A DNA stretch of 64,000 bases from Sinohyriopsis cumingii (Eukaryota > Mollusca > Bivalvia > Unionida > Unionidae). Positions 4,797 through 31,544 of this stretch are shown here, piece by piece. Position 1 is the first letter of the stretch, and each line of letters opens with the position of its first letter. The translations under genes and the position numbers were made by a program. The notes under the pieces are model-generated. The model worked only from the letters and a program-made list of their open reading frames with translations, searched no databases and had not been told where the DNA came from. Location: assembly GCA_028554795.2 (NCBI GenBank), contig CM068825.1:98325451-98389450 (forward strand). The letters are read 5' to 3'.

Positions 4797-4902
4797 GACC
4801 AAGGTCAAAACTATAAAAATATCTTTCTTCCACATTTATTTAACGTGATATCATTTTATATATGTACCATTATTTTCTGCTCGCGCCTTATGTTCTTTTC
4901 AG

Positions 4903-4936: not shown

Positions 4937-4939
4937 GTA

Positions 4940-6104: not shown

Positions 6105-6109
6105 CCCCA

Positions 6110-7423
6110 CTAATGTTTCCAACCGATCCACGAGTTCATGTACCTATTGTTCGTCCACAAACACGTTTTAACTGAATTTATTGTCATACAATCTGTGGTC
6201 GCTTCACTTTTACGTGTAAGTGCATGACCACCGAGGCCTTTTCCTCGTTTGGGCGGTTCATCCTCTGGTGGGGACAAATATAACTATTCTTCCTTGGGAG
6301 GCACATCCGTTTGTTTAGCCTCCAGATCATAGATACCTGGAATGTACATTTGGTTTGGCATTTTCTTCACCTATGGTTCGATAGAGGTTAGCAAGTTTCT
6401 CAGGTTATTGTTGTGTTCCCATGTTAAAAAACGGCAGTGGTTTTAGCGACTTTCTTTATTCCACAGTTTCCGCGGTCATGATTGAAATTTCTGTTCTTGG
6501 TCCGATCTATGGTACAAACTTTCGTTCGAATCCCTCTGTGAGAACTTGCGTATTGTTGCGACTATTACATTCCTTTGACACGTTTGTACCCATTCATCTA
6601 CTTGGGTAAAAGGTATAGTTGATCACGCGCGGCTTCGCAAGGTGATTACAAGTCTCTGTTATGATATCACTGGCGTATTTCGTCATTGTTTATGGTTATT
6701 ACATTTGTTTAATTGTTTTATCAGATGCTTGTGTGCGACACGTTCATGCCCACTTCGGCTCAATCCTTGCATGGTTCACCAGGCAAATAAATAGTGAGGT
6801 AACTGTAGACCTCAACAAACATATTCCGAAACTAACCCCACGAGTAATCAGTGGCACACCAAGTCCAATGAATGTTTGCAAGACAAGACCAAGTCAATGT
6901 CACGAAATATCATTAACATTTTACAATAGTCTCGGACTACCTTAATGTAACTGTGCGGATCGTTGGATCACATAGGTCACATCTATGTTTTTGTGTCGGC
7001 CTCTGCAAAACGTTCTCGCTGGATTGTGTTGGAGTTTATTATCACATTATATTATACAACAAGCTTATCCTCACTTTAATCAAAGTTGTCAATGGTAGGA
7101 GCTTCATCGATTTTGGTAAAGAAATCAACGGTGTAAGATTTACTTCTTGGTGACGACTGAAACCCTACTGTAAACTATCTCGGTACATCATAACACAGTT
7201 GATCGTCAGCTGATGGTACAATTATGTACAACCGATCTCACGTTAACTTTCTCAGAATCATACTCAACAGCAGTGGGATTTTCCCTGATTTAGCCTGGCC
7301 ATCACCGTGCTTGGGTAGTTGGGCTTTCAGTGAGCAGAAGAGTCGATGACGGTTGAGAAAGATCTTTCTCTTTTTTGTGATGCCATGTTGAACGTTACTT
7401 GTTGTATAACACAATTTTTGCAT
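6110..7423 (-). pseudogene. Unrecognised decayed coding block, minus strand
   Basis: Read on the minus strand, several protein-like segments occur in order but in different frames with stops between them: a candidate start MASQKRERSFSTVIDSS near 7380, then NPTAVEYDSEKVNVRS, SYTVDFFTKIDEAPTIDNFD, LANLYRTIGEENAKP, MPNQMYIPGIYDLEAKQ, and a proline- and lysine-rich segment with EDEPPKRGKGLGGHALTRKS. Several of the stops are TAA or TAG. No family was recognised. The arrangement is convergent with the plus-strand block at 5413-6104. The alternative is chance: a plus-strand frame of 94 codons also crosses 6661-6945. Confidence 0.3.
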
Positions 7424-7502
7424 AAACCAACCATGTATTCATATTGTATGCGGTGCCGTATCAAAATCTGTACTACGAATCCAGCTCGAATTAAAATACG
7501 TC

Positions 7503-7729
7503 ATGGTTGAACTGCGTGTACTGGAACTTGTGTTCGGTGTGGAGCAAATATGTCCACTTTCAGTACAAAAAGTTGGCTGTTATGTAGCTACTCCACAAAT
7601 GAAAATACCATGGACACCATGGAGCAAATACTCTGGTGAAAAGCATATTCCTGGATATAATTACCATGGTCTGGCACAGGGCTTGATATACGGCTTGATT
7701 CTAACATCCAGCGAAAGTCTAAGTTTATG
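7503..7729 (+). pseudogene. Short ORF with a phospholipase A2-loop-like motif
   Basis: A 75-codon frame. Its C-terminal third contains WTPWSKYSGEKHIPGYNYHG. The pattern (basic)-x-(L/I)-PGYN-(Y/F)-x-G resembles the calcium-binding loop of the PLA2 domain in parvovirus VP1 and in adintovirus-like elements, where the loop continues into GPG. Here the following residues are L-A-Q, and no His-Asp catalytic dyad follows before the stop, so even if homologous it is inactive. The ATG is not supported by context. It may belong with the decayed blocks at 5413-7423. Confidence 0.25.
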
Positions 7730-7784
7730 AGTCCTAATAACTCAAGTGTGTCAGACTTTCATATAAGGTTTGGTATTTATATTA

Positions 7785-8048
7785 CACGTTGTCGCGCAAT
7801 GTCTGACGTGTGGCAGGTTATAATAGTCTATAACAATGGGACATCATGCCGCAGACATATAGCATCATGTCCCACACGGTCACATTATTCTGACACCAGG
7901 TCGCCCAGTCCTAACATTAATGTCTTAATGATGAGCGCCAAGTGAGGCAGCAGCTAATACAATTTTTATAAGTCTTTGGTTTGACTCGGATGGGGTTAGA
8001 TCCCGCGAGCTTCCGCATCCGAGGGGGACGCTCTAACCATTTAGGCTT
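7785..8048 (-). mobile_element. tRNA-derived SINE (family 1), copy 1, degraded
   Basis: Matches the copies at 29194, 42704, 45970 and 48871. On the minus strand the element starts with a tRNA-like head (A-box and B-box region at about 7985-8048) and continues through a conserved body (tcctgacaccaggccgaccag in better copies, read on the plus strand). This copy has lost the canonical B-box (gttagatcccgcg instead of gttcgaacccgcg) and both ends. Confidence 0.85.
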
Positions 8049-8049
8049 G

Positions 8050-9186
8050 TTCCATATTCTTTCTTATTACAAATGAATTGGTTGTAATGCATACGTCTGA
8101 ATGGCATTAGTGATTCTATATAATCTCCTAAAAACATTTCTCTAATTAAAATTTACTCTTGATATTTTTCGCTGCTATATTCACTAATTACGTTATTATA
8201 TTCATTAGAATATTCTCTGTTCACTTCATTATCCACATTTGGTGGCCTACTCAGGATCAGCGACTTCAGCTTACTTGAACAATATCAAATAATGAATTTT
8301 CACGTTTTCCTCTGATGATTGGCCAGGTCTAAGAAATAACCCATTGCTCTGGTAGATTGATGCCAGGATTTGTTTACACATGTATTATTTCAAAATAAGG
8401 CCAACTGTATGTTTCAATCTGTGAATAGTTTGCCATCGATATAATTGTTTAATATATTCTCAGACAATCTCTACCAAATATATTGTAGCCATAATATTTT
8501 CTCCAATATATTGTATAGAAATATAGCCACAACAATATTCTCACAAAATATTCTCTATGACATATATTATCCTAGCTATATTCTCACCAGAAAACAGTCT
8601 CTGTATAAATGTACATTACAGTCAATAATGTCTGTGGCAGGCAGATATGCATTGAACTCCTATTGCAGCATCACTTTAGGCTCACACGGGGTGAGGCTCT
8701 CTTCAGTATCATGTACACACATTTAAATAAAAACGTACGAGTGATTTAAGGTAAAGTTATGGAATATACAAGGCTTTGACGTGCATCAAAGCCTGAAATC
8801 TAAAACGCTCATAATGATACTAATCAGCGCAATCGAATATATGCTTTACTTTTTGGACAACCATCTAGCGCATATGCAAATTTTATACTTGTTTTCGTTT
8901 GCGCTCATTCCTAACGAAGAGTAAAATGACTATAGATTGTGTTCGTTGTTCACGTGTTGTGTCTGTAGCCACAAGGGCCCAGAAGCTCAACTTCACAGTA
9001 TCACAAAAAATGCCTTCTACATAAAAAGAAACAACTATCAAACGAATATCGACTGTCGTTTGTATGGAGGCGTATGTTCTTTATGTATTGTTTTGATCGC
9101 GTGTTGGAGCTTTATTTAAAAGCGAATCTGAATATTGGGATGAAGGTAGCTAAACATAGAGGAGGTGTATAAAGAAAGTCGAACCA
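8050..9186. other. Non-coding AT-rich stretch
   Basis: Includes an imperfect series of ataatattctc-like words at about 8440-8600 that opens a 93-codon frame by composition alone. No gene was recognised. Confidence 0.55.
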
Positions 9187-9256
9187 CAACAACAATAATA
9201 ACAACAACAACAACAAAAAACAAAAAAAAAAAAACAAAAAAACAAAAACAACAACC
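9187..9256. repeat. A-rich (CAA)n/(A)n tract
   Basis: Repeated CAACAA and A-runs immediately upstream of the LINE that starts near 9385. It could be the tail of an older insertion. Confidence 0.8.
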
Positions 9257-9384
9257 TATGGTATTATTTTATTAACGGGTTCTATCAGAAAAAGGATTAT
9301 AATATAAATAACTATTACCGTGCATTTGCTTTTTTCGTTAATTGGTTTTGTAAACTATAATCAGCCCACTACACTACTAAGATC

Positions 9385-11446
9385 ATGGAAAGTTCCAGCT
9401 GCAAAGAGCTCTTCGAGATTACTAACAAGCTAATGTCAAGGAACAAATCAACACCACTTCCAACTACCTTCTCTCCAGTCGACCTTCCGGACATGTTTGC
9501 AAATTTCTTCCGTGACAAGTACAAACCATTAGAGATAAGCTTGACACCACAATTTCAATTGACTCGTCGTCACCATGCAGTTGGGATACAGAATTTGAGC
9601 GGCAACCATTAGCAGCATTTGAACCTGTCTCTATGGATTTCGTACGTACAATCGTGATGAAGAGTGCACCAAAGTCATGTGAACTTGATCCAATTCCAAC
9701 ATCACTGCTGCCTGAGTGCTTAGATCCAGTATTGCCTTCACTAACTGATGTTATTAATACCTCTCTCTCATCCGGGGAAGCCCCATCATTTTTCAAAACT
9801 GCCATTGTAAAGCCTCTGCTGAAGAAACCAACACTAGACCATAACGATTTAAAGAACTACCGCCCAGTTTCTCATCTCCCATTCATATAAAAATCTTAGA
9901 AAAGGTTGTTCTATCTCATCTTGTATCTCATCTATATTCAAACATTCTTTTTAGCAATGTACAATCTGCATATCGCCCTTGCCACAGTACTGAAACTACT
10001 CTTCTAACAGTAGTTAATGACATTCTCTCTGCGTTGGATAGCGGAAAGATTACAGTCCTCACCCTCCTTGATTTGTCTGCAGCATTTGACACAATAGACC
10101 ATGATATATTACTTCACCATCTCCAGCATGTATTTGGCATTCATTATACAGCCTTACTGTGGTTCAAGTCCTTCTTGGTCAACATGATACAAATTGTATC
10201 TGCAAATGGAATACACTCAAGCCCAGTTGATATATGTTGTGGTGTTCCACAGGGGTTTGTTCTTGGACCTGTTCTCTTCATTCTGTACACTCAGTCGCTC
10301 TCAAGTGTCATAGATCATCACCCAGTGTCTCACCAACTGCACGCTGATGACACCCAAATATACAAATCTAGCCACCCACCTGAAGTTGATGCTACCAGGT
10401 GTAGAGAGGTGCATTTCTGATGTGAAATCATGGATGACATGTAACAAGCTGCAAATGAATGATGATAAAACTGATCACAACACAAAGCCTTTCTCATTCA
10501 CATCCTTTACCTCAAACAATAAATATCAGCAACACCAACATTAAATTCACACAATCAGTACGAAACCTAGGTGTTACTCTGGACAGTACTCTCACATTGC
10601 ACCAACATGTCATGAACATATGAAAGGCTGCATATCTGGAGCTGAGACGCATTTCTGATGTGAAATCATGGATGACATGTAACAAGCTGCAAATTAATGA
10701 TGATAAAACTGATCACAACACAAAGCCTTTCTCATTCACATCCTTAACCTCAAACAATAAATATCAGCAACACCAACATTAAATTCACATAATCAGTACG
10801 AAACTCAATTCTGTCTGGTTCAGCTCAATATCTACTCCAGAAACTTCAAAAAGTTCAATACACAGCTGCTCGGATCATACTTAGAGTACCACGATCAGAG
10901 CACACCTCCCCGCTGCTCTGTACCCTACACTGGCTATCCATTCTATCCAGAATTAAACACAAAATTTGTTCTCTGTGCTGCGTTTCACTGTCGGACTCTA
11001 GTCCAACATACCTATCCGATCTCACCCATGTATACACACCAGCACGATACTTACGCTCCTCTTCTGACAATCGTATACTCATTATTCCCACTATGAAAAC
11101 AAAGTCATATGGACAGCGTTCTTTTGCATACCAGGGCCCAGCAACGTGGAATGAATTGCCCACTGAACTTAGACACTAAGATACAGTGATCACATTCAAG
11201 AAGGCTCTCAAAACTCACTTATTTCGACTGCAAGAACAAACTTGAAGACCTAATAATGTTTCCTACCTGAAATATTCTCAGCATGATTTTTAGTTTTTAA
11301 TGTTTTTTCTAATTTCATGGTGTTTGTTTTTGTAATAATATTATTATATGTTTTTTTATCTTATAGGTGTTGTCTAATGTTGTAAAGCGCTTAGAGCTAC
11401 TAAAGATTAGGCGCTATACAAAGTCCTCATTATTATTATTATTATA
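9385..11446 (+). pseudogene. CR1/L2-like non-LTR retrotransposon, 5'-truncated and dead
   Basis: The reverse transcriptase is readable in order. Linker at 9385-9610 (KELFEITNKLMSRNKSTPLP). RT start at 9633-9890 (SCELDPIPTSLL, LLKKPTLD, LKNYRPVSHLP). Palm motif A DLSAAFDTIDHD at 10070-10105. GVPQGFVLGPVLF at about 10240. LHADDTQIY near 10338, where the usual F/Y before ADD is H. C-terminal segment at 10830-11170 (AARIILRVPRSEHTSP, LHWLSILSRIKHKIC, GQRSFAYQGPATWNELP). Frames change near 9890 and 10400, and no endonuclease domain is present. The 3' end carries the typical tail tgtaaagcgcttagagcta ... aggcgctatacaaag followed by (ATT)n at about 11430. The YRP, motif A and 3' tail place it in the CR1/L2 group of the Jockey superfamily. 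Not mobile. Confidence 0.92.
10411..10804 (+). repeat. 156-bp internal direct duplication inside the LINE
   Basis: 10411-10566 is repeated at 10649-10804 (offset 238 bp, only a few mismatches such as aaatgaatga versus aaattaatga). It repeats the RT segment after the ADD motif (SDVKSWMTCNKLQMN) and destroys the reading frame. It arose after or during insertion. Confidence 0.9.
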
Positions 11447-11661
11447 TTGTGTTCTTGTATGAATTCATAACGTTGAACGTTGACAAACATCTTCAGAATA
11501 CGACACAATAATTTGAAACACAACAAAACATGAAAGTACTAAAATCAACATTGGATAATTTTAAAATGTAAAGTGTGTTAGCGTCGTTATTCATGTTTTC
11601 ACTTGACGAAATATTTCAGCACACAACTTCACAGTATCATTTACAACAGAGAAAACGAAGA

Positions 11662-11881
11662 CTACCGTATGTACTTGCTTATAATTTCAATCCAACTGCA
11701 AGATGAACAGACCCAGATAAACCGCCTCATAATAAACCGACAGATCTGGGTCTGTGCAGTTTATTAGTAATCAGTAGAACAAACAATATTGACCCTGATC
11801 TCCAGACGCACTACGCAAGGGCAGATCCGGGGATTTGTTGTTTGCAGTTTGACTCGACTTATAAGCATGTACATACGGTAG
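11662..11881. mobile_element. MITE with 23-bp terminal inverted repeats, TA-flanked
   Basis: The left end ctaccgtatgtacttgc... and the right end ...gcatgtacatacggtag are inverted repeats of about 23 bp with one mismatch. Each TIR can be read as CCGTATGTAC flanked by TA, which fits a Tc1/mariner or pogo-like target site. The 220-bp interior has no ORF but has an internal stem (cagacccagat / atctgggtctg at about 11710-11750). Assignment to a superfamily is inference. Confidence 0.75.
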
Positions 11882-11889
11882 ATCTCGCC

Positions 11890-12722
11890 CTCTAGCCGAC
11901 TATAACACTGAGAAATACAACTGATTGCAGCAATTGTCGAAGAACTGGAAAATGGGATTACGTTGTACAGTTATGAATTTTACCCAACTTTTATCGCAAC
12001 GACAGGTATAAAGAATATTTTATATTTTCCTTAAAGGGAGAAAAGATTTTTAGGACATTACTAATGTTACCTATCGGAACTCTCAAGGCAAAATGATATC
12101 TATGTATGAGGTGTATGGTACCTGGGTCGTGTAGATGGATTTAACCATCCTAAATTAAATATCAGTTGTTCTAAAAAGCACTGGTATAGTTTAACCAAAG
12201 TCTATTCAGTCCTGATTATTGAATGATCTGCATCATAACTGTCATTAAATAAAATCAGACGAAAATTATGTGATCGTAGTCTAATACATGACACCCATTA
12301 CTGAAATAGTCGCTAGCGAATGCCTACATAACCTATATGGCTTGTGCAAAATTATAGTGCTTGATAGCTAATCAACACTAAATATAAAATCAGTAGATCA
12401 TGCCTAAGTGGACATGTTATTTATGGTTTTTAACTGATATAAATGTTTCGCTTTGATTTTATTTTCCTGCAGTGATTCATGCTTGCTCCCATTGCACTGT
12501 TTCTTTGTTTCCTTCTTTTTCCTATGACAGATTGTTGATAAATGACGGGAAGCATTATCTTAAAATAACTCTGCAAGCAAATTGTTTTAAATACTGCTAT
12601 TTCAAACGGTTGTTTACATATGTCATTATCTAGCTCAATCTTGTTTATCATTTCATTACTTCCTCAGGCTGTTTAGTACATTGTTTGCTCGTGACCTTTT
12701 GAAAAGTCACATTGTCCCTAGA

Positions 12723-12770
<48 letters not shown>

Positions 12771-13200
12771 ACTTGCGCTCTCAGGGGTGTGCACGCACGC
12801 GTGAATGTATATCAATTCTTCTCATGAAAGGACTCCATATTGATTCACATGTAAAGCATTTTTGATATAAAAATATTTTGCTGATTACCTGTTTAATTGT
12901 TTCATCTAATTTGAACAAAAATGGCGTACGTCTTTTCAAAGTTTAGTTCAAGGTTAACATGCTTGCAAGAAGTTGCATGCTATCATATCCATTTGAAATT
13001 CATGCCATATAAGCTCTGTATTTGAAGTATACCGGTTTGGGAATATAAGCTACGTGTTATAAATAGAAAATACTATGGTGTATATCTGAATATTCCTAGT
13101 GAGCCATCCTTAATTTCCGTGTCTTTTAATATAACATTTAAGAACTCGGAGAAGAGCAAGCATAAATATGGCAGGTATTTCTCCAAAAATGAAATCTGGC
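11890..13200. other. Non-coding stretch with a (GT)n microsatellite
   Basis: GT repeat at about 12727-12769. The remainder is AT-rich with no recognised gene. The 73-codon minus frame at 12430-12651 shows no domain. Confidence 0.6.
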
Positions 13201-13214
13201 GCAGTTTCATGATT

Positions 13215-13965
13215 ACATTGTTTTGTAAAACTTAACAAATATTTTAATCATCAAAGTTAGACATGAAAATGTGAGAGGAACCTACAATATTACGAAGTGA
13301 ATCCAAATAAACCTGCAAAAAGTTTTATTAAAGTCCAGAAGAATGAAATGTTCCGCATAAACTTCAGAACTGGAATTGTACTGATCAGCCAAGAATAGTG
13401 ACGTTGTCAAAATAGCGTTAATAATTTCACAATAGTTCCAGAATAATATTATAGTCCAAAACTGATCACTTTTTATTTCTACTGAACAGTCAAAAACAAA
13501 TCTTTTTCCTCTCAAAATATAACACAAAAGACGTCTGCAGACTTGATGTCACAACAAGAACACAAAAAATAAGAATGACTCCAAATCAGGAATCAATCTG
13601 ATTCCTCAGTTCTCTCCTTATATACACCTTCAATAGTATATTAAGACTGTATATGGCAAAATTCGCCACTTGACAGATCTTCCTATTCAGTCTAATATTT
13701 TAAAATACCTATTCATGTCAATTAGCTTCTAATATATCACATGACTGATCTGTCCAATGGGAGAAAGGCCGAACTTATCTATTTTCATTATTAGTAACTG
13801 TGAACACACACGCAAGCATCTATTTATAGATCCTATGCATTTTTATGCACATACGAAAACCAGTTATAGATAATTACTACAATTTACAATGACTAAAATT
13901 AATTATTTTTAGACAAAATAATGTACCAGGAGTTTAAAAAAATTGATATACATAACATGCAGATC
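13215..13965 (-). mobile_element. LTR-like dispersed repeat, copy 1 (minus)
   Basis: The reverse complement matches 60925-61690 over about 750 bp with moderate divergence. Shared landmarks in order are ttttttaaactcctggt, aggatctataaatagatgct, the TATA-like aaggtgtatataaggag (13614-13628), and ggcggatc/gctgatcagtac. The TATA box about mid-element, the absence of coding capacity and two isolated copies suggest a solo LTR or a short non-autonomous retroelement. The 81-codon minus frame at 13282-13527 lies inside it and is not supported as a gene. No target-site duplication was defined. Confidence 0.5.
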
Positions 13966-14650
13966 AATAATTTCAAAGGTCACAATGTAAAAGATCCCTA
14001 TTAAACTCTTAGAGGGATGTTATATTTAGGATACGCCCTGTCTAATCTGCGTGTGCGGAAATACACTGCAGCAGAGTTTAAAGTCAAGTAACAATAACGA
14101 ATATTTTGTTTATCTATTGAGTACATAAGCAAATGTATGCTTTATGGTGTTCTAATTAGTAATCAGAATTGTTTCCATTTGAAGTACTGTCCATTATAGT
14201 TATTAAAAGCTACGATATATTTTTTCCATACCATTCTTACTCGTACATTCGGATTGTATATTATGAAATAAAATGTGTGCCATAAAACTGTTTACATTTA
14301 TATAAAAAATATGTCAGCCACAATACGAATTAGTCAAGATCATTTATTTGATTGTTATTGTTTTTCTTGGATATGCGTTACTTCATGATAAGAGACACAA
14401 TTTTAGGAAACAAAGTCAACCGACCCTTGTATACAAGTCAGATAACTGAAAGGCTGTTACTGATCACGGACCAAGAATTTGAGAATTAGATATGATATTA
14501 TAATAAATCGAATAAAGTTTGGATGTTTCTGAATGAACACTTACTGGGCCTTGTCACACCTATTGATAAGCAGCGAGACATGAAAATAAAAGGGGAAAAT
14601 AATCCATTGATCATCGTGCAAAATTAATATCTACTGTTCTTAAATTCTAG

Positions 14651-14808
14651 GTCTGAAGTTGGAAAGAATATTTTTGAAACTGCTGGAAATAATGAGAGCA
14701 CCAGAAGTAGCCTAACTGAGGTTGAAATAGATATTTTTGAAACTGCTGGAAATAACGAGAGTCCAAGAAGTAGCCTGACTGAAGTTACTTCCTACTTAGA
14801 AGTTCTAG
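14651..14808 (+). CDS. Array exon A1: two 21-aa repeats plus tyrosine tail
   Basis: 158 nt between acceptor cttaaattctag and donor TCTAG/gtggat, phase 2 to phase 1, 52 full codons without a stop. Two copies of the 21-residue repeat (start SEVGKNIFETAG, end ESPRSSL) are followed by TEVTSYLEVL. TSYLEV has the Y-x-x-V tyrosine motif at the exon end. Joined to B1 it reads through in frame. The repeat matches no domain I recognise. It is polar, with Asn, Glu, Ser and Thr, and is likely disordered. Confidence 0.6.
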
Positions 14809-15232
14809 GTGGATCAGGCATGTCTCCAACCTTATTCAATAACTTTTTAAGCCGATAATATTTAAGTGTAGCTGGGGAAAAAGAATAATTCGTAAATTTA
14901 TTCTTTTGCTTTTTATTCTATGACTATAGATAACTGCATGTCAGCATTAACATGCTTACGGAATATTAGTTTGAGAAATAAAAATCATTTTTATTTTGTA
15001 TATAATCAAATTTATTCCATTTGTTTGTGTTTTCTAAATCTATAACTGTCTATGGGAGTGTTTCTAATGTGAATTAATTGGCTGACATATAGAATTCTAA
15101 CTTTCATTATAATCTTTTGAACATAAGCGCGATCCACAGCTGTAACTGCAAGTTTTCACAAAGAAATATGGTTTTTTTTAAAACAGATTCATTTGTGACC
15201 GGAATGATTATACTAATCGATTATCATTTCAG

Positions 15233-15269
15233 ATCTTACAGTAGAGTGCAGAGAAGAAGCCAGTGCCAG
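15233..15269 (+). CDS. Array exon B1: 37-nt micro-exon
   Basis: Acceptor cgattatcatttcag and donor GCCAG/gttagt. Enters in phase 1 and leaves in phase 2, and completes D-L-T-V-E-C-R-E-E-A-S-A with a split Arg codon that is finished by the first base of the next exon A. Without phase conservation a micro-exon of this size would be unconvincing. Its recurrence five times with intact splice sites is the main support. Confidence 0.6.
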
Positions 15270-15889
15270 GTTAGTATGGCACGTGTAGCTGTAAAGATAT
15301 ATTGAAAACGTATACCAATCAACTTTCAAATGTATAGGCCAGGGTCGACATAAACGATTGCATTGGAGACTGCATATGAACACTGAGATTAAAGATGCAT
15401 ACTTCAGGCGAGCACATATGCCCACTCAAAGCAAATATAATGATTTATCTAAATGTAAATATAAATATCATTAAACGATGATACTTGCATACATTGATAC
15501 ATCTGAATAGTGCTATTTAACGTTCTGCGTTCAAGTGAAAAAGAATAAATTGGCTATAATTTCATCTCCTATAAGAAATAGATTACACAGTTTATATAAA
15601 TGGTAGTGAAAACAACGAATCATCATGGAAACAACATAGATATATTAGAGAAGGAAAAGTGGTAGCAAGAAAATCAACTTTTCTAAAGGATTGATAGGTG
15701 CGTTACTCCAGGTACTGGATATACTATGTGTACATTATTTTCTCGTTTTATTTCCAGTGGAAAAACCTAAAGTAGATCGAATTCGATGCTATAGCTCTCT
15801 GTACCATATTCAGGCAAACATAACAAGAAGACATAAAATTGAAACTAATAAGAACCAGGTATACAACATTAAACCAACGACAGGACAGC

Positions 15890-15965
15890 AGTGACTCAGT
15901 GGTTACTGTGTTGTAGTTGCTACAGGAAAGGGGGTGGGGTGAAGATTCAAGGTGCCCGTTTGATT
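15890..15965 (+). mobile_element. SINE family 2 head fragment
   Basis: tgactcagtggttactgtg followed by a degraded B-box-like gattcaaggtgcccg. It matches the start of the longer copy at 29815-29995. Body and tail are missing. Confidence 0.5.
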
Positions 15966-16146
15966 TCCCTATTATTTGAGAATTAGATATGATATTATAA
16001 TTAATCAAATAGAGTTTGGATGTTTCTGAATGAACACTTACTGGACCTTGTCACTTCTATTTATTAGCAGCAAGGCATAACAGTACAAATGAAAGTATAA
16101 AATGGATCATTTGCAAAATTAATATCTCATAACTATTGTATTTCAG

Positions 16147-16247
16147 TTCTCGGACTGAAGTTGGAATAAATATTTTTGAAACTGCTGGAGATATGGACAG
16201 TTCCAGGAGTAGCCTTTCTGAAGTATCTTCCTACTTAGAAGTTGTAG
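16147..16247 (+). CDS. Array exon A2: one 21-aa repeat, shifted acceptor
   Basis: The AG used by the other A exons is CG here (ctcgg). An AG six bases upstream (tatttcag at 16146) restores an acceptor and adds exactly two codons, so the frame is kept. The exon is then 101 nt, phase 2 to 1, with one repeat (TEVGINIFETAGDMDSSRSS) followed by L and SEVSSYLEVV. SSYLEV fits the ITIM pattern S-x-Y-x-x-V. Confidence 0.5.
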
Positions 16248-16689
16248 GTGGGTCAGTCTTGCCTCCAACCTTAATCAATTTATTTTTGAGTAGATAATAT
16301 TTACGCGTAGCTGGGAAAAGGAATAACTCTTTAATATCTTTAGTTCAGAACACATTAGCAAATGTCTGTAGATTATTATACTGTTTCTTGTTCTTTTTCT
16401 ACAACTGAGCATAATTACACGCCAGCACTGTCAAGATTGTAGGATATGAGCTTGCCAAATAAAAGTAATCTCAATTTTGCAAATAAACAGATTTAATGTA
16501 TATTTTAGTCTTTTCTGACACTGGGAGAGTTTCTAAATTAAATTATGTGGCAGAGATGCATAACTCCATCTTCCATTTGACTCTTCTGCATCTATATGCA
16601 CAACATAGTGGTCATTACCAGTTTGCAGTCGAAATATGTTTCTAAAGTCTTTTGTGAATGGAATAATTGTTATCATTAATTATTGTTTT

Positions 16690-16740
16690 GAATTCACAAT
16701 ATGGTGCGGAAAAGAAGCCAATGTATCTTGGCCAGAATTA
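16690..16740 (+). pseudogene. Decayed second exon B copy in unit 2
   Basis: tggtgcggaaaagaagcca aligns with the middle of exon B (agagtgcagagaagaagcca), but the acceptor is lost (attgttttgaattc) and there is no donor. Equivalent ghosts lie at about 18685 and 20360. They mark a 140-bp intron duplication specific to units 2 to 4. Confidence 0.6.
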
Positions 16741-16814
16741 CAAGTTTTCAAAGAAATATCTTTGAAAAGGTCTTTTGTGAATAGAATAAATGTTATCATC
16801 TATTATCACTTCAG

Positions 16815-16848
16815 ATCTTACAGCAGGAAGAGAAGAAGATCGTGCTGG
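16815..16848 (+). CDS. Array exon B2: 34-nt micro-exon
   Basis: Acceptor tatcacttcag and donor GCTGG/gtcagt, phase 1 to 2, L-T-A-G-R-E-E-D-R-A then a split codon. One codon shorter than B1, with the same phases, so frame continuity is retained. Confidence 0.55.
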
Positions 16849-18094
16849 GTCAGTATGTCATGTATAGCTCTAAAGACATAATGCAATGGTATTCCAGTCC
16901 AACGCATGAAGTTTAGTCCAGCGTTGGTGTTTAAAAAATGCAGATAAACACTGAGATTAAACGTGCGTACTGCAGGAGAGCACATTTCCCAAATCAAAGC
17001 AAATAGAACGAATATATCGAAATGTACATTAAGATGACATTGAACAATGTCACTTGCGTGCTTTGATGCATTTGAAAACTGCTATTTAACGTCTTGTGTT
17101 CATTTGAAGAGGAAAATAGATCATAAATCATGATTCTATCGCCCATAAAAAGTAATTACACACATTTTAAATAAATATGAGTGAAAGCAAAGAATCATCA
17201 TGGAAGCAGCATGGATATATCATTTGATGTAAATAGGTAACAAGTAAATAGACCTTTCTTGTGTTTTATTAGGTGCACGAGTCTGTGTAAGAAGTATTGT
17301 GTGCTTTTCTTTTGACTAGTCTTCTTTGTTTCTAAAGTAAAAACCGGAACTCGATCTAATCGATATTATAGATATCTGTATCATATTCAACCAAATAAAA
17401 TATCTAGACATACATATATCGATGAATAGTCACCGGATCAAGACGAAGAAAATCCATTTTAAACACTTGGAGAAATTTTGTATTTTGGTAATACCCTTTA
17501 TAATCTACATGTGAGGAAATAGACTTCATTAGAGTTTCAAGTAAACAAACCGGTGAGGAATCGGACGTTACTAATTCGAATTCATGAGCAGATGTACGCC
17601 TCCTGGTCCTCGGATTAATGATAATAATATAATTGTTTTCATTTGAAAGCAGCGAACCATTTATTTTTATGCCTTTCTTCGTCATACTTTCGAAATAAAT
17701 ATTATGAAATGAAAAATATGCCATATAACAAATTAGATTTTTAAGAAAAAAATCCAACATCAGCCACAATACGAATTAGCCAAGATCATTTATTTGATTG
17801 TTGTTGTTTTGATTGGAGATGAATTTCTTCAATATAAGACCTGCACTGCTAAATAACAAGAAATAATTAACACATGCATAAAAGTCGAATATTTGAAAGT
17901 TTCTTAATGATTATTGATCTCTGAATTAACATTTTAATATGATGTTTTCATTATGAATTAAATAAAATTTGGATGTTTCTAAATGAACAGTTACATGACC
18001 TTATCACTTCCATTGATTAGGAGCAAGACATGAAAATACTAAATGGATCATCTAGTAAACGTAAGATCACATAACTGTCGTACTTAAATTGTAG

Positions 18095-18252
18095 GTCTGA
18101 AGTTGGAATAAATGTTTGTGAATCTTCTGAAAATAACGATAGTCCCAGGAGTAGCCCGTCGCTAGTCGGAATAATTCTTTTTGAAAATGCTGGAAATAAC
18201 GAGAGTACCAGGAGCAGCCTGTCGGAAGCTTCTTCGTACATAAAAGTTCAAG
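18095..18252 (+). CDS. Array exon A3: two 21-aa repeats plus tyrosine tail
   Basis: 158 nt between acceptor cttaaattgtag and donor TTCAAG/gtgggt, phase 2 to 1. The first repeat has diverged (VCESSENNDSPRSSPS) and the second reads IILFENAGNNESTRSSL. The tail is SEASSYIKVQ. It differs from A4 by a single base (K versus E after SSYI), which shows recent unit duplication. Confidence 0.6.
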
Positions 18253-18821
18253 GTGGGTCAGGCATGCCTCCAACCTTAATCAGTCTCATTTTAACTTGAT
18301 ACTGTTTACGTGTAGCTGGGAGAAGGAAAGAAGGAATAATTCTTTAATAACGTAAGTTCAGACCACATAATAATCTGTAAATTATTGACCTGTCTTTTTT
18401 TTTTCTTCTTCTGCAACTGAGCATACTTACATGCCGGTAATTATCATTCTTTCAAATTATGAGTTTGCCTAATAAAAGTAACCTCTATTTTGCAAATTAG
18501 AAGATTTATTAAATTTGTCTTTTCTGACACTGTGATAGATTCTAATTTAATTTATTTGGCAGAGATGTAATATTCAGTTTTCCATTTTAATATTTCACAT
18601 AGGCGCCTATCACAGTCGTTAGCAGTTTTCAGTCCAAATTGGTTTTCAAGTCTTTCGTGAATGAAATAAATGTTATCATTGATTATCGTTTCATGTCGAC
18701 AAATGACTGCGGAAAAGAAGCAATGCATCATAGCCATAATTACTAGTTTTCAAAAAATATTTAAAATAAAATAAAGGTCTTTTATGAATAGAATAAATGT
18801 TATCATCGATTATCATTTCAG

Positions 18822-18855
18822 ATCTTACAGCAGAGGGAGAAGAAGACAGTGTGAG
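18822..18855 (+). CDS. Array exon B3: 34-nt micro-exon
   Basis: Acceptor attatcatttcag and donor GTGAG/gtcagt, phase 1 to 2, L-T-A-E-G-E-E-D-S-V then a split Arg codon. More acidic than B1. Confidence 0.55.
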
Positions 18856-19336
18856 GTCAGTATGGTATGACTAATTTTGAAGGCAAAATACAATGGTATA
18901 CCAGTACAAGTATGAAATGTTAGGCCAGCGTCTGTGTAAAAAGACTGCATAATGTTACCGACTGCAGATAAACACTGAGATTAAACGTGCATAACACAGG
19001 GGAATTCATTTCGCAAGTCAAAGTAAATAAAAGGAATGTATTTAAATATACATTTAGATGGCACCGCATAATGATACTTGCATACTTTGAAGCAATTGAA
19101 AACTGCTATTTAACGTCTTTTCTTCCTTTGAAAAGGAAAATAGTTAATAATAATGCATGATTCTATCTCCCTTAAAAGGTAATTACACATAATTTAACTA
19201 AATGTGAGTGAAAACAACGAATCATCATGGAAGCAGCATGGATATATCATTGGAAGTAAATAGGTAACAAGTAAATCGACCTTTCGGATTATTTATTAGG
19301 TTTATGATATTTATTTATTTAACCGGAAATTGTACG

Positions 19337-19339
<3 letters not shown>

Positions 19340-19403
<64 letters not shown>
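19340..19403. repeat. (TA)n microsatellite, unit 4
   Basis: About 32 TA repeats at the unit boundary. TA runs recur at similar positions ahead of exon A in unit 5 (21002-21080) and in the decayed unit (27791-27872). Confidence 0.97.
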
Positions 19404-19406
<3 letters not shown>

Positions 19407-19766
19407 TGTCTGTGTGCGTGTAGAAAGAGAGAGAGAGAATATATATACCAGTGTCAATAATAGTTTATTTTATGTTTATAAAAGCAGCGACACCATTTAT
19501 TTTATGCCTTTTATCATCATACTTTTGAATTATATATCATGATATGAAAAATGTGCTATATCACTATTTAGTTTCTTAATGATTATTGATCTCTGAATTA
19601 ACATTTTAATATGATGTTTTTATTATTAATTAAATAAAATTTGGATGTTTCTAAATGAACAGTTACATGACCTTATCACTTCCATTGATTAGGAGCAAGA
19701 CATGAAAATACTAAATGGATCATGTAGTAAACGTAAGATCACATAACTGTCGTACTTAAATTGTAG

Positions 19767-19924
19767 GTCTGAAGTTGGAATAAATGTTTGTGAATCTTCT
19801 GAAAATAACGATAGTCCCAGGAGTAGCCCGTCGCTAGTCGGAATAATTCTTTTTGAAAATGCTGGAAATAACGAGAGTACCAGGAGCAGCCTGTCGGAAG
19901 CTTCTTCGTACATAGAAGTTCAAG
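19767..19924 (+). CDS. Array exon A4: two 21-aa repeats plus tyrosine tail
   Basis: 158 nt, same splice sites and phases as A3 and one base different. The tail reads SEASSYIEVQ, which restores the acidic residue after the tyrosine seen in SSYLEV. Confidence 0.6.
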
Positions 19925-20492
19925 GTGGGTCAGGCATGCCTCCAACCTTAATCAGTCTCATTTTAAGTTGATACTATTTACGTGTAGCTGGGAGAAGGAA
20001 AGAAGGAATGATTCTTTAATAACGTAAGTTCAGACCACATAATAATCTGTAAATTATTGAACTGTCTTTTTTTTTTCTTCTGCAACTGAGCATACTTACA
20101 TGCCGGTAATTATCATGCTTTCAGATTATGAGTTTGCCTAATAAAAGTAATCTCTATTTTGCAAATTAGAAGATTTATTAAATTTGTCTTTTCTGACACT
20201 GTGATAGATTCTAATTTAATTTATTTGGCAGAGATGCAATATTCAGTTTTCCATTTTAATATTTCACATAGGCGCATATCACAATCGTTAGCAGTTTTCA
20301 GTCCAAATTGGTTTTCAAAAGTCTTTCGTGAATGAAACAAATGTTATCATTGATTATCGTTTCATATCTAATGCAGAGTGCGGAAAAGAAGCAATGCATC
20401 ATAGCCATAATTACTAGTTTTCATTAAATATTTAAAATAAAATAAAGGTCTTTTATGAATAGAATAAATGTTATCATCGATTATCATTTCAG

Positions 20493-20526
20493 ATCTTACA
20501 GCAGAGGGAGAAGAAGACAGTGAGAG
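20493..20526 (+). CDS. Array exon B4: 34-nt micro-exon
   Basis: Acceptor attatcatttcag and donor GAGAG/gtcagt, phase 1 to 2, L-T-A-E-G-E-E-D-S-E then a split Arg codon. Confidence 0.55.
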
Positions 20527-20999
20527 GTCAGTATGGTGTGACTACTTTTGAAGACAAAATACAATAGTATACCAGTACAAGTATGAAATGTTAGGCCAGC
20601 GTCGGTATAAAAAGACTGCATAATGTTACCGACTGCAGATAAACACTGAGATTAAACATGCATACCACAGGGGATTTCATAAAACAAATAGAAGGAATGT
20701 ATTTAAATATACATTTAGATGGCATTGCATAATGATACTTGCATACTTTGAAGCATTTGAAAACTGCTATTTAACGTCTTTTGTTCCTTTGAAAAGGAAA
20801 AGCAGATAATAATAATAATACATGGTTCTATCGTCCTTGAAAGGTAATTACACATAATTTAACTAAATGTGAGTGACGACAACGAGTCATCATGGAAGCA
20901 GCATGTGTATATCATTGGAAGTAAATAGGTAACAAGTAAATCGACCTTTCGGATTATTTATTAAGTTCATGATATTTATTTATTAACCAGAAATTGTAG

Positions 21000-21001
<2 letters not shown>

Positions 21002-21080
<79 letters not shown>
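21002..21080. repeat. (TA)n microsatellite, unit 5
   Basis: About 39 TA repeats followed by a short gtgtgtagagaga tract. Confidence 0.97.
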
Positions 21081-21084
<4 letters not shown>

Positions 21085-21633
21085 TGTGTGTAGAGAGAGG
21101 GAATATATAATTGTTATCGTTTAAATCTCTGTCAATAACAGTGTCAATAATAGCTTATTTTATGTTTATAAAAGCAGCGACATCATTTATTTTATGCTTT
21201 TTGTCATCATACTTTCGAATTATATATCATGGTATGAAAAATATGCCATATCACTATTTAGATTTCTAAGAAAAAATGCAACATCAGCAACAATACGAAT
21301 AAGCTAAGATAATGTATTTAATTGATATTGTTTTGTGTGGAGATGTATTTGCTCATGATAAAACACATACGGCTAACTAGAAAAACAAAACCGATCCATG
21401 CATATGAGTCAAATATTTGAAAGGTTTTACTGATAACATGACCTCCGAATTAACATTTTGATATTACCCCTATCCCTATTAATCGAATCAATTTTGGACG
21501 CTTTTAAATGAACATGCACTGGACCTTGTCACTTTTTATTTATTAGGAGCAAGTCGTGAAAGTACAAATGAAAATATTAAATGGATCAATTTTCAAAATT
21601 AATCTCACATTAGCTATTGTATATACATTGTAG

Positions 21634-22786
21634 GTCCGAAGTTGAAAGAAATATTTTTGAAACTGCTGCAAATAATCATACTGCAAGGAGTAGCCTAACT
21701 GAGATTGGGATAAATATTTTAGAAATTGCTGAAAATAATGAGAGTCCGAGGAGTAGCCTTTCTGAAATTGTGATAAATGCTTTTGAAACTGATGGAAATT
21801 ATGAGAGTCCGATGAATAGCTTGTCTGAAAATGGAATTAATATTTTTCAAACTGCTGGAGAAAATGGGAGTCCAAGGAGTAGCCTTTCTGAAGTTGTGAT
21901 AAATGCTTTTGAAACTGATGGAAATGATGAGGGTCCGAGGAGTAGCCTGTCTGAAAATGGAATTAATATTTTTGAAATTGCTGGAGAAAATGAGAGTCCG
22001 AGGAGAGGTCTATCTGAAAATGGGCTAACTATTTTTAAAACTATTTGAAATGATGAGTGTCAGAGGAGCAGCCTGTCTGAATTTGGGATATATTCTTTTG
22101 AAACTGCTGGAAATGATGAAAGTCTGAGGCGCAGCCTGTCTGAAGTTGTGATAAATTCTTTTGAAACTGCTGGAAATGATGAGAGTCCGAGGAGTAGCCT
22201 GTCTAAAATTGGGATTATTATTGTTGAAACTGCTGGAAGTGATGAGAGTCCGGAGAAAAGACTATCTGAAGTTGGGATAAATATTGTTGAAACTGTTGGA
22301 AATGATGAGTGTCCGAGAAGCAGCCTGTCTAAAGTTGTAATAAATGCTTTTGAAACTGCCGGAAATTATGAGAGTCCGAGGAGTAGCCTGTCTGAAATTG
22401 GGATTAATATTTTTGAAACTGCTGGAAATAATGAGAGTCCGAGGAAAAGACTGTCTGAAGTTGAGATAAATATTTTTGAAAATGTTGGAAATTGAGGAGT
22501 AGCCTGTCTGATGTTGGGATAAATGCTTTTGAAACTGCTGGAAATGATAAAAGTCTGAGGAGCGGCCTGTCTGACGTTGGGATAAATGCTTTTGAAACTG
22601 CTAGAAATGATGAGAGTCCGAGGAGTAGCCTGTCTGAAATTGGGAGCAATATTTTTGAAACTACTGGAAAAAATGAGAGTCCGAGGAGAAGCCTGTCTGA
22701 AGATGGGATTAATATTTTTGAAATTGATGGAAATGATGAGAGCCAAAGCAGTGGACTGTCTGAAATTTCTTACTTTGAAGTTCAAG
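21634..22786 (+). pseudogene. Array exon A5: 18 tandem 21-aa repeats, interrupted
   Basis: 1153 nt between acceptor atacattgtag and donor TTCAAG/gttggc. Eighteen copies of the 63-nt (21-codon) repeat precede a nine-codon tail ending ISYFEVQ. Two lesions are visible. In repeat 7 the conserved Gly is a stop (TGA at 22046-22048). In repeat 14 a net 10-nt loss near 22492 shifts the frame. Adding 10 nt makes the length 1163, which restores phase 2 to 1 exactly, so the ancestor was an in-frame exon. Repeats alternate partly between INAFETDGN and INIFETAGEN types, which indicates expansion by multi-repeat blocks. Antisense frames (LLLGLSLFPAVSK) are also long, as expected for a 63-nt repeat. The lesions could be real or assembly errors. 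Confidence 0.65.
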
Positions 22787-23222
22787 GTTGGCAGGCATGC
22801 CTTTACCTTTAATTAATCCCTTTTAACGTCAATAATATTTACGTGTAGCTGAGGAAATGAATAATCATTCAATAGCTAAAGTTCATAATACACCAGCAAA
22901 TGTACATAGGTGGAATTGTTGTTCTTGTTTTTGTGTATTTTCGCTATAACTGTGCACAATTACTTGTGAGCACCACCATGTATTTTGTGTGCAAATAATA
23001 CAATTTATAATATTCATTTGTCTCATCTGAAACTAGAACTATTTATAGGAGCATTTCTAATTTGAATTATTTGGCACAAATTAATAATGTAAAAATCCAT
23101 TTGTATCTTCTAAACACAGGTGCGCATCATAGCCGGAATTACAAGCTTTCACACAGAAACTAATTTTTTTATAAAAAGTCTCTGGAGGACAAAATTATTA
23201 TTCTAATCGATTTTCATTTCAG

Positions 23223-23259
23223 ATCTTACAGTAGAGTGCAGAGAAAAAGCCAGTGCCAG
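23223..23259 (+). CDS. Array exon B5: 37-nt micro-exon
   Basis: Acceptor cgattttcatttcag and donor GCCAG/gtcagt, phase 1 to 2. It differs from B1 by one codon (E to K in REKASA). It is of the unit-1 subtype, which shows that the two outer units are closest to each other. Confidence 0.6.
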
Positions 23260-26819: not shown

Positions 26820-27780
26820 CCGCACCCAAAAGTGTGTCAGCCACCCACCGCAAAATAAATATTTATGACTATTTTAAAATCAAAAAGAAATTATTATTAA
26901 TAATTCGATCAACTAACATGCAAGCAGACAAACCAGACAAACACACGAGCCAACAAAAGTAAACTTTAGAATTAATCATTCGAATATGTGATGTGTGAAA
27001 AGAAATAGATTTTCCACACATGTACGCCTTTCATTCTTAAGTCGACGCCAGTTATCCATACATAAACCTGTACAGAAATATAGACGTTGCCAATCACAAG
27101 CATCCTTATCTTAAGCGCTTTACTGCTATTTAGAAAAAGAATGGATACAAAAACGACAAGCTGTTCGAAGCGATGGAATTGACATTCTTGTGGGAATGCA
27201 TGCCTGCCTACATCCTTGTTTCTATTCATTGATCCATAAATAGATAGGTACACAATTCATAAATAAATATATACATAGATACATACATGCATAGAAACTG
27301 TGTAACAAAAAGTAGAGGCAACACAAAGATGTACATAAAGCATACTCTTCATGGTTAAAAGGGAGAAGAGTTTTTAAAAATTCTCGCTGAGAGCTATTAT
27401 ATTTAGCTAATGCACCAAATTTATATTTGAACAATTAATTTGCGTCTGAGTTTGAAGTCCAAAAATGCTACTTCGTGGTCTTCAAATGTAATATATATAT
27501 GATCCGACTTAACGTTTTCTAATCTTATAAGCAATATTGTACATAATTCTCAGGAAATCTATTGTTATCTTCAAACATACTCCATGGCTCTTCTAGTCAA
27601 AATAGATAGTGGACAAAACTATGTCTTAATTTATAGTGTTGTCAACTATTGTCAACATTTGCATTGAATGCAATTATATTTTTATATACCTTTCGTTCCT
27701 ATCCTTTCGAATTATGTTATTAAATGAAACTTAAAACCTTCTGATTGGTTGTACAAGATGTAACAACATCAATAGCGACA
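26820..27780. other. Decayed array/intron sequence
   Basis: AT-rich, with short overlapping minus-strand frames (26972-27434) that have no domain. It is similar only in short words to array introns. No functional feature is seen. Confidence 0.4.
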
Positions 27781-27790
27781 ATATGAAGTA

Positions 27791-27872
<82 letters not shown>
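27791..27872. repeat. (AT)n microsatellite, decayed unit
   Basis: About 41 AT repeats, at the same relative place as the TA tracts of units 4 and 5. Confidence 0.97.
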
Positions 27873-27874
<2 letters not shown>

Positions 27875-28114
27875 TCAATTACTTCATATGTAATTCTTCT
27901 TCATAAGAGAAACTTCATTAGAAACACTGCATTGGACGTCAAACATTTAGAAGGTTCCTACTGATAATAAACAGTTAATTAAAAGATATAAAATATGATC
28001 TTCTTATAAATCGAATGCGTTTGTACGAGCACGTTCTGGGCATTATAACTATTATTGACTGGCAACATGAAAATAATTGATATTCAGATATTAATGGCTC
28101 TAATACCCCATAAT

Positions 28115-28242
28115 TATGTTTAAATCTATTTTTGATAAAGGAAGAAAGACTGTTCCACCCGCTGGGAATCACGATGTTTCTCACAAAGACGAGGGTTTAA
28201 AGAATACCAGGACCGAAGTCCATTCCTCATTAGAACCCCATG
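28115..28242 (+). pseudogene. Decayed exon A remnant, unit 7
   Basis: gctgggaatcacgatg corresponds to the repeat word gctggaaataacgaga. The tail accgaagtccattcctcat, followed by tagaaccccatg/gttgg, corresponds to the tyrosine tail and donor (tcctacttagaagtt...). The tyrosine codon is lost (TCA in place of TAC) and the frame is broken. The intron words after it match those of intact units. Confidence 0.5.
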
Positions 28243-28702
28243 GTTGGTAAAATATGCCCCATCTATGACTAATCAATTTTTAATAATAACGTGTAAACGA
28301 CGTCATTATTCCGTACGGAACAATCATAATAATAGAGCACAAGTATTTATGACTCTATTATAAATTTTTACCAATTAATGCCACAAACGTGCATGCAGAT
28401 GAATGGGTTTACCAAACATATATTAATTTTTTTTTTCACAAACATTCAGTTTGTAGACCAGTATCTTTTTTCCATTGTAACTCTTCTTTTGTTTAAATTA
28501 AACTAGTTAAACTTATCGTATTCAGTGCACTTATATATAACAATGTTTCAAATTTAAACTATCTGGCAAACGTGCTTACTTTAAATTGAATTCAATTACT
28601 TTATAAAGGAAGCACACGTCGTTCATACTTAATGGTTGCAGGTATGATGTTTACAAACAAGTCTACTGTGAGAGATTTTTTTCCCTCTCATTCTCATTTC
28701 AG

Positions 28703-28745
28703 ATCCCATAATAACACGCAGATTAGAAGCAAAAGCCACTGTGAA
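28703..28745 (+). pseudogene. Decayed exon B, unit 7
   Basis: The acceptor cattctcatttcag is intact, and the text after it (atcccataataacacgcag, then attagaagcaaaagcc) aligns with exon B, but the donor has become gtgaac and no in-phase end remains. Confidence 0.5.
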
Positions 28746-29193
28746 CCACATTTTTCGCTATAAAGACATTGAAAAGGCATTCCAGTCTATGCATGTATGT
28801 TTAGGCCAACATTGAAATTCACGATCAGAAAGTGCTGTAAATTGGAGATGACAACTGTGAGATTAATGGTGCAAGCACCAATCAACGAAGCTTCAAAATT
28901 CAGACGAAATTACAACGATTTATTTAAATATTCATGTAGGTGTCATCCGACGTTGGCACTTGCATTCTTTTATACGCTAGGAAACTGGTATCAGATAATC
29001 TAAGTTTTTAGTTCCGTCTGTCGAAAATAGAAAAGTCAAAATTAAGCTAGTATCAGGAAGAAAACACATTGAAAAAAAAATCCCCAAGACAGTATTCTGT
29101 CACACATAATATATAATATATACAGTTTATGACAAAGGAAGAGATAACAATTACTTGCGCGCGCGTACGTGTGTGTGTGTGTGTGTGTGTGAT

Positions 29194-29999: not shown

Positions 30000-30605
30000 A
30001 ATATACAAATAAGCATCAAGAACAACAATAGCAATAAAATTAAGGAAGAAATTTCTCACATCTTAAAACAGGTTTAGATTCCAAGTTTGATATTCCAAAG
30101 AAAACAATTAAAAAAAATACTAATTGGGTTATAGGAATAACAATGTAATATTTAACATAAATCAATGACTGGAATATGTACAAAACAAAAACGCAGTATG
30201 TCCACATATGTATTCTTTTATTTCTACAGTCATCGTAAATTGCCTAGACATTATCATAAGACAAGTTATAGGAAATGTCCATTGCAAAGACTATCAAGTA
30301 AAGACAATAAATCAATGCCAAAAAAATGCATTCATATATGTGCATCCATAGCAGCCTTTCTATGTTAGTGAAGAGATGTTGCTTTTTCTTATTGCACATT
30401 TTGTACCCTGCGTTTAAAGAAGTACAAAATGATATTTTCAGTGTAGATTAGAAGAGCTGTCGACGTTTGTTAATTCTTGTTATAAGAAAACATACCTATC
30501 TGTGATGAGTCTTTTGTTGAAAGCTTTTTTAATAAAAATCCAGTGTTTTAGAAAACAAAAGCAGGTCCGGACCCTTAATTTTGTTTACTCCCAAAACTGC
30601 AAAAT
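30000..30605. other. Non-coding stretch
   Basis: No gene or repeat was recognised. The 67-codon frame at 30165-30368 has no domain. Confidence 0.5.
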
Positions 30606-30609
30606 GAAT

Positions 30610-30985
30610 GATTTGAATCTCTGAAGTACGAAAAGATATAGCATTTCCACTTGTGCAATCTGAAGTACAAAAAGAAATAGCATTTCCACTTGTGCAATCT
30701 AAAGTACGAAAAGAAACAGCATTTCCACTTGTGCAATCTGAAGTACGAAACATAGCATTTCCACTTGTGCAGTCTGAAGTACGAAAAGAAACAGCATTTC
30801 CACTTGTGCAATCTGAAGTACGAAAATAAATAGCATTTCCACTTGTGCAATCTGAAGTACGAAAAGAAATAGTATTTCGACACTTGCAATCTGAAGTGCG
30901 AAAGTAGATAGCATTTCCACACGTGTAATGTGAAGTACGAAAAGAAATAACAATTCCACACGTGCAATCTGAAATTCGAAACTGG
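30610..30985. repeat. 39-bp minisatellite, about 9.5 copies
   Basis: The unit reads roughly ctgaagtacgaaaagaaat then agcatttccacttgtgcaat. One copy lacks 6 bp. Because 39 is divisible by three, all minus-strand frames stay open (for example LHKWKCYFFSYFR), but there is no start, splice or composition support for a protein. Confidence 0.93.
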
Positions 30986-31227
30986 CGATTCTCATATGGG
31001 TGGACATTTTAAATGTTATTGCCGTGGAAACATCGCAAAAGTGTCAGGACTCTGTTACAGCTTATATGCCAATAGAGATATCATCTACCAGTGCTTGTAA
31101 CTCAGCAGTGAATAAAAACTATTTCACGATCGTAATTTCATGTAGAATCAAGCCTGTTTGTTTGAGATTGTCGATCAGGAAACTAAGACATAATAAACTG
31201 TGTAATTTCTTCCAAATATTTCTTGTA

Positions 31228-31262: not shown

Positions 31263-31544
31263 TTAGAGTACAAAAGTGACTGATGTGCAAGCCGGCCGTC
31301 TACTACAAAACATTACAAGTGTAGCTGTATAATTATCGCAAAACGGTACAACTGTCAAGATATAATTGTACTGACACCCTAATTGGTGATATAGGCAGCT
31401 GTGGATTAAATAGTTTCGGTTTTACCTTAGATTTTTATCTAAATAATTCGGTTCTCTCTAAAAAGCCTTTCTTAGAAGACAAGATATGATCTTGCATATT
31501 CCGTGCTCTACGTACTAGTTATCATGCAAATCAAATTAAAGCAA

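Follow-up and report, generated by a model that had tools for sequence, protein, structure and literature searches.

Does a run of short, phase-matched open segments in the chromosome of a freshwater mussel belong to a protein-coding gene that has grown by copying one pair of exons? The question is raised by a locus of Sinohyriopsis cumingii that lies in a stretch of 64,000 nucleotides (nt) of contig CM068825.1, analysed as a whole and referred to below as the window, with positions counted from its first letter. Between positions 14651 and 23259 the window contains five consecutive pairs of putative exons, each a longer exon A followed by a micro-exon B. Our analysis indicates that the locus quite probably belongs to a gene that codes for protein on the plus strand and in which a cassette of two exons has been copied several times; we infer its splicing, its expression, the remaining gene and the mechanism of exchange from the letters of the DNA.

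Putative exon pairs, reading frame and the broken fifth pair

The putative exons of the array are the following.

14651..14808, plus strand: exon A1, two copies of a 21-residue repeat plus a tail, phase 2 to 1
15233..15269, plus strand: micro-exon B1, 37 nt
16147..16247, plus strand: exon A2, one copy plus tail, acceptor shifted 6 nt upstream, in frame
16815..16848, plus strand: micro-exon B2, 34 nt
18095..18252, plus strand: exon A3, two copies plus tail
18822..18855, plus strand: micro-exon B3, 34 nt
19767..19924, plus strand: exon A4, near-identical to A3 (recent duplication)
20493..20526, plus strand: micro-exon B4, 34 nt
21634..22786, plus strand: A5, 18 copies of a 63-nt unit, one of them short, frame broken
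23223..23259, plus strand: micro-exon B5, 37 nt, 36/37 identical to B1

A preliminary description of this DNA had proposed nine junctions with usable donors and acceptors, and GT..AG was present at 9/9. Exons A1-A4 measure 158, 101, 158 and 158 nt, all 2 mod 3, and micro-exons B1-B5 measure 37, 34, 34, 34 and 37 nt, all 1 mod 3; A1-A4 and B1-B5 are open and have matching split codons. The codon shared by A and B is split as G/AT (Asp) in 5/5 pairs, and the passage from B to the next A rebuilds a split codon, as had been claimed, giving Ser, Gly, Arg and Arg at the four junctions. In A2 the homologous acceptor has been lost, and an AG 6 nt upstream serves in its place. The proposals that all five pairs run in phase 2 to 1 for A and 1 to 2 for B, and that any number of pairs could be spliced without a frameshift, hold for pairs 1-4, which are frame-neutral (195, 135, 192 and 192 nt), and fail at pair 5, where A5 (1153 nt, 1 mod 3) contains stops and the pair as a whole (1190 nt) is 2 mod 3.

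The 21-residue (63-nt) repeat described earlier is indeed present: A1-A5 hold 2, 1, 2, 2 and 18 copies, respectively, with one short copy among the 18. Its consensus is SEVGINIFETAGNNESPRSSL, rich in Ser, Glu, Asn and Gly, and A1-A4 together hold seven open copies of the unit. In A5, a TGA at 22046-22048 interrupts the frame, and a 53-nt copy at 22454-22506, 10 nt short, shifts it and leads to a TGA at 22493-22495. Pair 5 is broken, by a stop and a frame-shifting deletion in A5, and the working protein would most likely use pairs 1-4, with pair 5 skipped or being lost; to judge from phase only, pair 5 might be skipped cleanly.

The same damage could be read as regulation, pair 5 being a poison cassette whose inclusion would bring a premature stop and nonsense-mediated decay and whose skipping would give protein. 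Nonsense-mediated decay usually requires a stop more than 55 nt upstream of an exon junction, a distance that both stops (22046-22048 and 22493-22495) exceed with respect to the A5 donor at 22786. When splice sites were scored by a consensus matrix, used throughout, and ranked against all GTs and AGs in the window, B5 was found to retain a good donor, which ranked in the top 0.5% of GTs, together with an acceptor among the best 6% of AGs. Against such a device, the A5 donor is weak and the A5 array resembles neutral decay rather than something kept, and we consider a poison cassette highly improbable.

Homology between units and survival after divergence

Self-comparison of the window and alignments of the units showed that whole units of ~1.4-2.4 kb are homologous, introns included, the repeat unit consisting of two putative exons plus their introns, tandemly duplicated. 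Growth by exon-pair duplication, as the preliminary description had it, is therefore well supported, entire units being alignable through their introns. Of 12 segments compared between units 3 and 4, 11 show 92-100% identity, the exception being the segment 151-300 nt upstream of A (identity 0.61); B1 and B5 agree at 36/37 positions, while intron 1 of these two units is 0.59-0.64 identical. Because the units were duplicated from one locus, their shared phases are inherited and are not five separate facts, and the treatment of five phase-matched pairs as five independent observations was ruled out. Since the phases are expected from descent, the informative question is what survived after the units diverged.

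An internal standard for decay is provided by units 2-4, where a second B-like copy lies upstream of B and has lost both its acceptor and its donor.

16662..16738, plus strand: decayed extra B copy in unit 2, E 0.041, also found by self-comparison, splice sites gone
18665..18721, plus strand: decayed extra B copy in unit 3, E 0.016 for 18665-18697, self-comparison 18640-18721
20337..20392, plus strand: decayed extra B copy in unit 4, E 2.1e-05, also found by self-comparison

The loss of both sites in these copies shows how unconstrained decay looks. To this we compared all AG..GT intervals of 20-330 nt kept in 4/4 units (1, 2, 3 and 5), enumerated blind to the proposed exons. Unit 4, nearly identical to unit 3, was excluded from the enumeration, from the count of invariant columns and from the simulation described below; A was represented in the interval tests and the simulation by its last copy alone, so that the internal damage of A5 does not enter; and the A/B class of intervals extended up to 4 nt past the exon ends. 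On the plus strand 59 intervals were conserved in 4/4 units, 14 in A/B and 45 elsewhere. Length mod 3 together with a common open frame was kept in 14/14 A/B intervals, which are nested and not independent (6 inside A, 8 at B), compared to 1/45 elsewhere, where 14 intervals keep length mod 3 and one of these is also open. The minus strand yielded 0 intervals that keep both under 4/4-unit agreement and 1 when an acceptor in 3/4 units sufficed. At this 3/4 setting 26/28 plus-strand intervals fell in A/B, and the full A interval appears only there, because unit 2 has lost the homologous acceptor.

The introns adjoining the exons are 72% identical among units 1, 2, 3 and 5, and 4 of their 28 pairwise gaps are multiples of 3; inside the last A copy and B, by contrast, the units are separated by gaps of 3 nt. 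Invariant columns amount to 0.59 in exons versus 0.39 outside in one alignment, and 0.60 versus 0.34 in the other. In a neutral simulation started from unit 1 at the rate of the adjacent introns, both exons survived in 0/20,000 runs (product of the two, 9.8e-6), and at 0.6 and 0.4 of that rate the survival of both was 0.00065 and 0.0106, respectively, figures that are rough in that the star tree used overstates independence and the exons were chosen beforehand. Since the intervals keep length mod 3 and frame and the neutral survival of both exons is low, it is probable that A and B are genuine coding exons of the plus strand. Openness alone was rejected as evidence of coding: A2-A4 are also stop-free in one minus-strand frame, A1 has one stop in each of two minus-strand frames, and a different array of the window is open on the minus strand.

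Codon tests, the predicted product and the surrounding window

Spliced together, pairs 1-4 would encode 237 complete residues with 19% Ser, 16% Glu, 0.8% Lys and a net charge of -36, a composition that falls on the disordered side of the Uversky line. For one A5 open frame, an AlphaFold2 model made from the single sequence had a mean predicted local distance difference test score (pLDDT) of 55.5 and a predicted TM-score (pTM) of 0.48, and showed at low confidence one strand of ~9 residues per 21-residue repeat. As a guess from its sequence, the product may be a repetitive, acidic, low-complexity structural or secreted protein, possibly disordered or weakly beta-forming.

A number of observations weigh against a coding gene. 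The ratio of nonsynonymous to synonymous differences (pN/pS) in A1-A3 is 0.56, which is not significant (8.4% of neutral simulations were as low), and A5 is neutral, at 0.95 versus a neutral median of 0.88; nor are stops scarcer than neutrality would predict (1/22 units versus a simulated mean of 3.3, a count this low or lower arising in 19% of runs). An earlier, cruder estimate of the corresponding rates (dN/dS) gave 0.50 for A1-A3, 0.58 for A1-A4 and 0.94 for A5, and in the other two frames lower values for A5 (0.73 and 0.72) and higher values for A1-A4 (1.40 and 3.61). Both codon tests were done without the 53-nt copy, and the pN/pS test also without A4, which matches A3; for A1-A3 the codon test is suggestive at most. 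The A donors are weak at A1 and A5, being equalled by 7-8% of all GTs, and so are the A acceptors, those of A1-A5 standing in the top 4, 18, 9, 9 and 12% of AGs. In the alignments, the similarity of B1 and B5 reaches partly 150 nt into the following intron (0.85), the first A copy has one gap column between units 1 and 2, at the shifted start of A2, and the intron stretches 14497-14570, 14850-14887 and 15368-15454 are conserved to exon-like levels. The window is, moreover, rich in minisatellites, one of which (a 39-nt array) is open on the minus strand without any other sign of coding. Finally, no relative was found in a protein collection for spliced A1-B4 (8,000 candidates sharing the most words scored) or for one A5 open frame (1,640 candidates).

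How much the last point counts depends on the collection. A control search with a reverse transcriptase fragment from the window returned 2,855 matches, which shows that the search itself works; of the 120 listed, most were unnamed entries of metagenomic type, and a single named animal was among them. Because of this the coverage of animals in the collection looks thin, and the absence of a homologue means little. Solved structures gave 0 matches for one A5 frame and for spliced A1-B4. Pfam gave none above its cut-off for spliced pairs 1-4 (the best, Kinocilin, at E 0.059, is below it) or for two A5 open frames, and no kringle domain was found by Pfam in these translations. A search of viral contigs gave 6 pattern matches and 0 relatives, and a crude scan of positions 1-14600 with thresholds of our own gave 0 candidates for a first exon with a signal-like sequence.

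Part of this evidence would suit a tandem segmental array that is non-coding and contains a 63-nt minisatellite, its founding unit having happened to look exon-like and passed this look on to the copies. Phases inherited by duplication would make the five pairs non-independent, stop-free units of a length that is a multiple of 3 stay open cheaply, as in the 39-nt array at 30620-30981, and codon constraint is absent in A5 and not significant in A1-A3. Such an array would nevertheless have had to keep both exons in frame across units whose adjacent introns are ~72% identical, while the decayed B copies, unlike the exons, did not survive in frame. We regard this explanation as improbable, and favor a coding gene built from a multiplied cassette.

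As to the rest of the window, which looks minisatellite-rich when judged within itself alone, the 39-nt minisatellite at 30620-30981 is open throughout on the minus strand, within an open reading frame (ORF) at 30529-31008 of 159 amino acids, and a 48-nt minisatellite of ~42 copies occupies 31534-33505, with a 175-residue plus-strand open frame over part of it. Further tandem arrays are found at 142-854 (20 nt), 44996-45142 (36 nt), 53827-54145 (62 nt), 54768-54993 (37 nt) and 56044-57083 (26 nt). The reverse transcriptase fragment that served as the control query lies at 9845-10420 (RVT_1, E 1.6e-21) and is presumably LINE-type. A tRNA-like sequence on the minus strand at 42934-43006 (RF00005, 33.7 bits) was not called by ARAGORN, and a 181-residue open frame lies near it on the same strand, at 43358-43903. 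Within the locus, the stretch 14497-14570, ~80-150 nt upstream of exon A, has a between-unit conservation like that of the exons and is possibly a splicing signal.

A sixth unit, known systems and growth of the locus

A profile built from four units detected a sixth, diverged unit downstream of the array, with its A and B sides in the right order and spacing.

27679..28283, plus strand: A-side homology of unit 6, nhmmer E 4.7e-13, with a large composition bias
28651..28991, plus strand: B-side homology of unit 6, nhmmer E 7.7e-28

A6 carries an 18-nt insertion, and its ancestral frame is open for 46 codons up to the GT after 28242, the homologous donor; of 47-codon frames drawn at random from this window 7% are open, and 12% of window GTs score as well as this weak donor. 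The acceptor of B6 before 28703 is retained and ranks in the top 0.3% of window AGs. From A6 to B6 the GT, the AG and the G/AT codon are thus all retained, A6 and B6 both being open, while the positions homologous to the acceptor of A6 and to the donor of B6 no longer hold these sites. The B6 frame continues to a TGA at 28813-28815, and neither AATAAA nor ATTAAA occurs between 28703 and 29779. Pair 6 may be either a relic or a pair that turned into a 3' end. A long (TA)n tract is present in the upstream flank of unit 6 (27792-27872), and others lie in the introns downstream of B3 (19339-19403) and B4 (21002-21081).

The state of pairs 5 and 6 bears on whether the gene still works. In a decaying gene, the pairs would have been coding for most of the history of the array and would now be unexpressed or useless, pairs 1-4 having merely escaped damage so far. 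The stop, the frame-shifting deletion and the neutral evolution of A5 fit such a gene, as do the B6 donor and A6 acceptor that were not kept and the weak donors of A1 and A5, and the conservation test informs mostly on the past rather than on the present. On the other side, no damage is seen in pairs 1-4, which comprise seven 63-nt copies, four tails and as many B exons, and the recent duplication of units 3 and 4 added an intact pair. A gene in decay is in our judgment unlikely, though less so than a non-coding array.

If the locus is a coding gene of the kind we favor, its growth can be pictured as follows. Exon A would contribute one to two copies of the 21-residue motif (18 in A5) plus a short tail, and micro-exon B 10-11 whole codons of acidic linker together with the split codons it shares. 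Gain of A or B singly would shift the frame; the pair is frame-neutral, and for this reason unequal exchange between introns could add or remove pairs. Independently of this, A itself would become longer or shorter as the 63-nt unit changes in tandem copy number. More tentatively, the product may be a lineage-restricted, undescribed repeat protein whose length is set by gain and loss of exon pairs and of 63-nt minisatellite units, with birth, decay and a sixth relic in a 15-kb locus and with splicing that may choose pairs per isoform; we hold this fuller account to be possible but rather doubtful.

A literature search gave no description of such an array among the matches listed for the terms used. 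The preliminary description knew of no family with this 21-residue repeat and micro-exon arrangement; the arrangement is less exceptional than that suggests, since tandemly expanded two-exon repeats are already known from the kringle IV (KIV) repeats of LPA (PMC11201333). In the KIV-2 variable number tandem repeat, each repeat is split over two exons, one of 160 bp and one of 182 bp, and the whole 5.6-kb unit, introns included, recurs in tandem in varying copy number (PMC11201333). Here too a two-exon unit including introns has been multiplied in tandem, if A and B are exons; unlike the kringle domains of LPA, the unit measures ~1.4-2.4 kb, B is 34-37 nt, the product is low-complexity and A has an internal 63-nt repeat. 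The architecture would thus resemble LPA kringle IV plus an intra-exon minisatellite. Schistosome micro-exon genes (MEGs) have symmetric exons of 6-36 bp that account for ~80% of the coding region and could yield variant proteins through splicing (PMC5825161). The putative B exons resemble these in being very short and potentially able to generate variants; unlike the MEG exons, B is asymmetric (34-37 nt, 1 mod 3) and the coding sequence lies mostly in A (A1-A4, 101-158 nt). Elastomeric proteins such as tropoelastin have lysine cross-link modules, which are not apparent in the acidic, Ser/Glu-rich product predicted here, with its 0.8% Lys. Like tropoelastin and other elastomeric proteins, in which domains alternate (PMC3291537), the predicted protein would alternate two kinds of module along its length. 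Drosophila Dscam likewise has tandemly duplicated exons in one gene (PMC1397879), as this locus appears to have; unlike the mutually exclusive alternatives of Dscam, the frame-neutral pair here could be included serially.

Tandem two-exon repeats are a known way of gene growth, of which this locus is a fresh example, and the locus alone changes nothing in what is known on gene growth. If it is expressed, it would be a compact record of how a repeat-protein gene grows, with all stages alignable: the recent copying of a pair, an array inside an exon that first expanded and then broke, micro-exon copies in decay, and an old relic. One could then test directly whether asymmetric exons can duplicate only in pairs, and whether the number of pairs differs among isoforms or individuals.

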